A stretch of 64,000 nucleotides of DNA, from assembly GCA_009838515.1 (NCBI GenBank), contig VXRL01000065.1, positions 62,001-126,000 on the forward strand. Reading direction: 5' to 3'. This document shows, one piece after another, positions 18,028 through 18,691 of this stretch. Numbering within the stretch: the first letter of the stretch is position 1; each line of letters begins with the position of its first letter. The translations under genes and the position numbers were made by a program. The notes beneath the pieces are model-generated. The model worked only from the letters and a program-made list of their open reading frames with translations, ran no database searches and was not told the DNA's origin. Source of the stretch: Terriglobia bacterium (lineage in GTDB: Bacteria; Acidobacteriota; Terriglobia; Bryobacterales; UBA6623).

Positions 18028-18060
18028 GTTAGGTTAGGGTAGCGCGATACAATTGCCGAC

Positions 18061-18408
18061 ATGGCCCGCGTGCGCTTCTATCACAAGCCAAGTTGAACCA
18101 GCTGTCGCAAGGCTAGGAGTTTCCTGGCCGAGCGTGGCGCCGAGCTGGACTTGGTCAATCTCGGCAAGGGCCTGAGCGTTGCCGATCTAGATGCCGTGAT
18201 CGGGGATCGCGATCACCTTGGCTTCCTCAACACCCGCAACGTGCTGTACCGGGAGCTTGACATGAAGGCCAATCCGCCCGACCGCGAGCAAGCGCTTGAG
18301 CTGATGTCGAAGAACCCGAACCTGATCAAGCGGCCCCTCAGCGTGCTGGGCGGGACCGTGGTGGCCGGATTCGCGCGGGACGAGCTCGCCGCGCTGTGCG
18401 GCGGCTAG
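18061..18408 (+). CDS. predicted selenoprotein: ArsC/Spx-like thioredoxin-fold protein with in-frame UGA (Sec12)
   Basis: 115 residues if the UGA at 18094-18096 is read as selenocysteine. The protein begins MARVRFYHKPS-U-TSCRKARS, and the UGA stands exactly where ArsC/YffB/Spx-like proteins have the first Cys of their CxxC redox motif (the usual form is KPTCTTCRKA). Everything after the UGA continues the family: SFLAERGAEL, LGFLNTRN, NPNLIKRPL, VAGFARDEL, ending full length. The UGA is followed by a bacterial-type SECIS hairpin at 18106-18134. The likely role is a thiol/selenol oxidoreductase or arsenate-reductase-like enzyme; the substrate is unknown. TACAAT (18048-18053) lies 7 bases before the ATG. 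An annotation starting at 18151 would miss the active site. Confidence 0.88.
18106..18134 (+). promoter_or_regulatory. bacterial SECIS element
   Basis: Inner stem GGCTAGG (18111-18117) with CCTGGCC (18123-18129), 7 pairs including one G-U. Apical loop AGTTT (18118-18122). Below an AA/GA internal loop is an outer stem CGC (18106-18108) with GCG (18132-18134). The loop begins 21 nt after the UGA and has G in its second position, both within the published rules for bacterial SECIS elements (G among the first two loop bases, 16-37 nt spacing). It is the expected SelB docking site and also codes for protein. Confidence 0.82.
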
Positions 18409-18416
18409 TCGGAGAC

Positions 18417-18492
<76 letters not shown>

Positions 18493-18520
18493 CTGCTGGC
18501 ACTATCGGCCTCGCGAGCGT

Positions 18521-18595
18521 TGGAGCGGGAGACGGGGATCGAACCCGCAACCAACAGCTTGGAAGGCTGTGACTCTACCATTGAGTTACTCCCGC
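18521..18595 (-). tRNA. tRNA-Gly (anticodon UCC)
   Basis: 75 nt with encoded CCA. Acceptor GCGGGAG/CTCCCGC, anticodon arm ACAGC-CTTCCAA-GCTGT. Middle member of the cluster. Confidence 0.97.
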
Positions 18596-18615
18596 TACGC
18601 CCGCGACCGCACGAT

Positions 18616-18691
<76 letters not shown>

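Follow-up and report, generated by a model that had tools for sequence, protein, structure and literature searches.

Gene, in-frame TGA and surroundings

Within the window, that is, the whole 64,000-nucleotide stretch of DNA analysed here, positions 18061 to 18408 of the forward strand hold a gene for a predicted ArsC/Spx-like selenoprotein of 115 residues, with the TAG stop included in these coordinates. The assignment draws on the reading frame, Pfam, homologues and an AF2 model (pLDDT 92). As the initial annotation had described, the frame opens with ATG, contains a single in-frame TGA at codon 12 (18094 to 18096, forward strand; within HKPS-U-TSCRKA) and runs on to a natural end; with TGA read as U, it translates as MARVRFYHKPSUTSCRKARSFLAERGAELDLVNLGKGLSVADLDAVIGDRDHLGFLNTRNVLYRELDMKANPPDREQALELMSKNPNLIKRPLSVLGGTVVAGFARDELAALCGG before the TAG. 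The TGA would encode Sec12, the first residue of a UTSC redox motif, and the codon at 18103 to 18105 (forward strand) encodes Cys15, the resolving cysteine of the UxxC, which is near-invariant across the family. The active site is exactly what a standard gene caller had been expected to lose by starting internally, and the mechanical ORF list bears this out: its only entry at the locus is a TTG-started ORF of 85 amino acids (18151 to 18408) that begins past the Sec codon.

The surroundings of the gene are not informative as a clue to its function. Upstream lie a divergent gene without a Pfam hit and then a phosphodiesterase-domain gene, and downstream three tRNA genes (Thr-GGT, Gly-TCC and Thr-TGT; 18417 to 18691, reverse strand) stand end-on to the selenoprotein gene only a few nucleotides past its stop. 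Nothing beyond tRNA reached the cut-off in an Rfam scan of the locus. A candidate -10 box, TACAAT (18048 to 18053, forward strand), is located 7 nt before the ATG and appears as TACAAT or TAGAAT across the genus (L021 to L029); a sigma-70 scan of the locus returned no full two-box promoter, and no Shine-Dalgarno sequence was evident in 18048 to 18060. The mRNA may be leaderless, which would put the Sec codon just some 35 nt downstream of the 5' end.

To place the TGA in context, 399 genomes of the same class were searched, yielding a match in 147, and the DNA of the homologues was read at the codon aligned to the UGA. In the main family of 130 homologues (at least 39% identity), this codon was TGA in 86 and a Cys codon, TGC or TGT, in the remaining 44, and no third kind occurred, so that the active-site Cys of the Cys homologues falls precisely on the UGA. 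TGA-bearing homologues also occur outside the class, elsewhere in the phylum Acidobacteriota. The TGA is identical in L009 to L013, five genus members with almost the same sequence, which, together with its presence at this site in 86 homologues, excludes a sequencing error.

One alternative would be that the TGA is a true stop, leaving a truncated gene or pseudogene from which, at most, translation starting at the internal TTG (18151) yields a short protein. An ordinary ORF does start there, but we consider this reading highly improbable, since 86 homologues share the TGA at this codon and conserve the N-terminal active-site strand, the frame and the C-terminus, the hairpin that follows it is selected at synonymous sites, and an internal start would, according to the AF2 model, delete the first strand of the fold together with its active site. 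A pseudogene, a truncation and a sequencing error were all rejected on the conservation in 130 homologues and in the five near-identical genus members. We take the apparent stop codon in this gene to specify, almost certainly, a selenocysteine in the active site of a redox protein with a thioredoxin fold.

SECIS hairpin and selenocysteine machinery

Immediately downstream of the TGA, folding and comparison with homologues place a predicted bacterial SECIS hairpin at 18101 to 18138 (forward strand). Its upper stem of 7 bp is formed by GGCUAGG and CCUGGCC (18111 to 18117 paired with 18123 to 18129, forward strand), its loop is AGUUU (18118 to 18122, forward strand) with the critical G18119 and U18120, and a lower stem lies beneath. 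Refolding recovered the hairpin as it was first noted, with the loop starting 21 nt past the UGA and a G at loop position 2. Published rules for bacterial SECIS elements specify a loop of 3 to 9 nt, an upper stem of 4 to 16 bp, a G in loop positions 1 or 2, a distance of 16 to 37 nt from the UGA and a minimum free energy of -7.5 kcal/mol or lower (PMC13188914). The window hairpin falls within all of them (5-nt loop, 7 bp, G at position 2, 21 nt, -22.6 kcal/mol), in agreement with the spacing and loop G that had been claimed for it. Judged on this one sequence, however, the hairpin is only moderately significant, as 6 of 200 dinucleotide shuffles folded equally well (z-score -2.2).

A z-score of this size is too weak to decide by itself whether the hairpin arose by chance, and we therefore used a null in which synonymous codons were redrawn while the protein was kept unchanged. 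The loop was enclosed by a stem of 6 or more bp in 94% of the 86 TGA genes, compared with 3.8% of their synonymous-codon shuffles, whereas this was so in 4.5% of the 44 Cys genes, compared with 2.6% in the Cys genes' own null. The loop GU kept its two positions in 82 of the 86 TGA genes and was found there in 6 of the 44 Cys genes. The TGA homologues retain the upper stem and its standard pairs in several registers of differing sequence, and changes within a register preserve the pairing. This comparison rules out a chance hairpin and argues that the SECIS is conserved solely in the UGA genes and is under selection at synonymous sites.

The machinery needed to read such an element had been proposed as a genome-wide check, and all four components were found. 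The genome containing the window (5.84 Mb, 99% complete) carries a tRNA-Sec of 71.2 bits, which ARAGORN calls as tRNA-SeC with anticodon tca, along with selA (517 bits), selB (374 bits) and selD (304 bits), all four above the curated cut-offs. When selA was searched in the same 399 genomes, it was present in all 85 genomes read that carry the TGA form and missing from 12 of 42 with the Cys form (Fisher p = 5e-7; one Cys genome that has selA, G118, was left out of this tally), although the association is confounded by relatedness, with only four well-supported independent pairs, each of which showed the expected direction or a tie and none the opposite. Genus g5, from the same order, illustrates the pattern: its TGA genomes (G093, G117 and G320) have selA, and its Cys genomes (G013, G165, G258 and G363) do not.

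It might instead be supposed that the UGA is read in some other way, through Trp read-through or through a code in which UGA means Cys or Trp. Nothing specific speaks for this, and it seems scarcely credible. Of the window's 28 long mechanical ORFs, 17 end in UGA, which is therefore a normal stop here; the SECIS, the tRNA-Sec and selA, selB and selD are all present; and in 85 genomes the UGA form never occurs without selA. Any other meaning of the codon was rejected on its use as a normal stop and on the completeness of the Sec machinery.

We consider it very likely, on computational evidence, that selenocysteine is inserted at 18094 to 18096 by SelB and the SECIS, forming a UxxC redox centre. 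SelB and Sec-tRNA-Sec, the latter made by SelA and SelD, would bind the hairpin at 18101 to 18138, and the ribosome would then insert selenocysteine at the UGA, giving a 115-residue protein of ArsC/Spx fold with a U-T-S-C redox centre. In this protein, the Sec12 selenolate would attack an oxidised sulfur substrate such as a disulfide or persulfide, and the resulting selenylsulfide would be resolved by Cys15. The core interpretation of the initial annotation, that Sec provides a UxxC redox centre, is thus supported by the UGA at the position of the active-site Cys, the SECIS and the Sec machinery.

Fold, family and possible function

The window protein scores 63.4 bits against the Pfam ArsC family PF03960 (gathering threshold 24). 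Its AF2 model, built on a 70-sequence alignment, matches Spx (3gfk, TM 0.80), 3gkx (an ArsC-related protein of Bacteroides; 0.83) and YffB (1rw1, 0.82), and E. coli ArsC more weakly. The modelled fold is that of ArsC/Spx/YffB proteins, which bears out the ArsC/Spx-like identity first proposed for it. Positions that do not vary across the 70 aligned sequences include Sec/Cys12, F55, R64, P73, R91 and G103. Membership of this superfamily leaves several activities to be weighed, among them arsenate reduction and transcriptional regulation.

The first is that of a selenium-dependent arsenate reductase in which Sec replaces the catalytic Cys. The three catalytic arginines of E. coli ArsC have established roles. 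The positions corresponding to Arg60, Arg94 and Arg107 are N57, R91 and F104 in the window protein, so that only the middle arginine is kept, whereas Arg occupies the positions matching N57 and F104 in the class's own ArsC-type proteins. Against the arsenate reductase model TIGR00014, the window protein reaches 37.4, well below the cut-off of 106.05, and on this score and the two missing catalytic arginines arsenate reductase was rejected as a family assignment. Although the Pfam match is to the ArsC family and ArsC selenoproteins have been predicted earlier (PMC1088965), we regard an arsenate reductase function as decidedly unlikely.

Somewhat less remote, but still unlikely, is a redox switch of the Spx type, which would bind the alpha-CTD of RNA polymerase and use a U-S bond as its sensor. 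Spx is the top structural and a near-top sequence match, the PSCTSCRKAR stretch is common to both apart from the Sec, which is Cys in Spx, and of eight relatives scored, three exceed the cut-off of the Spx/MgsR model TIGR01617 (relatives 61.7 to 80.1). The window protein itself scores 61.8 against that cut-off of 75.05. Gly52 of Spx has a role in the alpha-CTD contact; the corresponding contact loop of the window protein is two residues shorter and lacks this glycine, and the Spx C-terminal tail is absent. Thus, despite the shared fold, the window protein is probably not a Spx regulator. YffB-type reductases are likewise single small domains with this fold, but the window protein scores 36.5 against the cut-off of 121 for NF008107, the model for YffB-type ArsC-family reductases, and differs in its UxxC motif and in the rhodanese linkage seen among its relatives.

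This linkage offers a clue to function. A rhodanese gene stands directly upstream on the same strand at 67 of the 130 loci (47 TGA and 20 Cys), mostly within 140 nt (for example, L031 1158 to 1493), and at none of the 130 is one found downstream. A rhodanese neighbour in about half of the relatives favours a persulfide or thiol-disulfide reductase over an arsenate reductase or a Spx regulator, and we tentatively assign such a function, at slightly short of an even chance. No rhodanese adjoins the gene in the window or in its genus, and the proposed substrate is therefore weak for the window organism, in whose genome a rhodanese match (E 2e-22) lies elsewhere than at the locus.

A second in-frame-TGA gene was also observed in the window genome, on contig C27 (L164 1465 to 1911, reverse strand). 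In this rhodanese-domain, lipoprotein-like ORF, the TGA stands where the rhodanese has its catalytic Cys (IVAYURRGG), which agrees with the UxxG type of rhodanese selenoprotein already known.

Selenocysteine/cysteine exchange and known relatives

On a protein tree built with the active-site column masked, the Sec/Cys label has to change at least 12 times, or 10 without three long branches. Well-supported branches force 4 of these changes, and the analysis rejects a single clade for the TGA genes. Sequence comparison thus indicates that Sec and Cys have been exchanged repeatedly in the family. Four Cys genes of genus g91 (L088, L089, L093 and L122) still bear SECIS-like remnants; in L088, a 7-bp stem and a GGUC loop are retained after the Cys codon. 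A further Cys homologue, L047, also has a remnant of the SECIS hairpin. In these five genes, the remnant likely reflects a recent change from Sec to Cys, a kind of event described already in 2006 (PMC1794560).

The opposite direction may be represented by L106, L108 and L134, whose TGA codons fall within a Cys clade (support 100/99 with 19 rows and 99/81 with 18 rows). Such a placement is a possible outcome of several parallel losses of Sec in the surrounding lineages. However, the hairpin of these three genes has a different sequence and lies in a fourth register, which favours Sec having been regained with a new SECIS over several parallel losses.

Taken together, these observations could describe a phylum-wide, unmodelled selenoprotein family of the Acidobacteriota whose members, working with a rhodanese, reduce persulfides or disulfides in a selenium-dependent manner, and in which Sec was lost to Cys several times and regained at least once (L106, L108 and L134) with a SECIS in a new register. 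We offer this composite picture as a possibility that, as a whole, is more doubtful than likely. If true, the order of the Sec/Cys steps would be legible from living genomes. Many Sec/Cys pairs fall within one genus or family, and with the SECIS remnants and the candidate reversal among them, they make it testable why and in what order bacteria swap selenium for sulfur at one active site. The rhodanese linkage supplies a concrete substrate hypothesis for a poorly understood set of ArsC-like proteins.

The description of the gene as a new selenoprotein holds in part. The phylum-wide branch looks new and unmodelled: no curated NCBIfam selenoprotein model recognises it, and a literature search on Spx, Acidobacteria or rhodanese with selenoproteins found nothing on the present family. 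It is possible that the branch overlaps part of a group defined in 2008 by cd03032, the Spx subfamily. The kind of protein, however, is not new. An ArsC selenoprotein with a UxxS motif was predicted in 2005 from the Sargasso Sea (PMC1088965), an ArsC-like UxxC protein, 'Arsenate reductase 2', was predicted in 2008 from Global Ocean Sampling, where it was defined by cd03032 (PMC2398784), and a 2026 catalogue of 119 selenoprotein families includes both ArsC types, with the UxxC form as NF041106 (PMC13188914). The window protein resembles 'Arsenate reductase 2' in its ArsC-family fold, in having Sec for the first Cys of CxxC and in its bacterial SECIS, but scores only 23.9 against the NF041106 (ArsC_rel_Se_1) cut-off of 85, with relatives in the family at 24 to 41. 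With the UxxS arsenate reductase selenoprotein (TIGR00014), it shares the ArsC superfamily and Sec at the catalytic Cys position, but it differs in its UxxC motif and its low score on that model. The window gene is therefore a separate, unmodelled branch of already predicted ArsC-like selenoproteins and introduces no new principle. Standard gene calling loses the active site of the window protein, and since the branch lies outside every curated selenoprotein model, this loss probably recurs in the many Acidobacteriota that carry the branch.

Three other TGA-bearing ArsC-like types were encountered in the class alongside this family. L014, L150, L159 and L161 form a separate type with the motif PGUKTC (117.9 bits on NF041106 for the L014-like form), and L149 is of the UxxS type, with the motif PQUGKS and 118.9 bits on TIGR00014. 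L154 and L158 carry the motif PTUSTC and score 95.8 on TIGR00014 (cut-off 106); this USTC type may be another unlisted variant.
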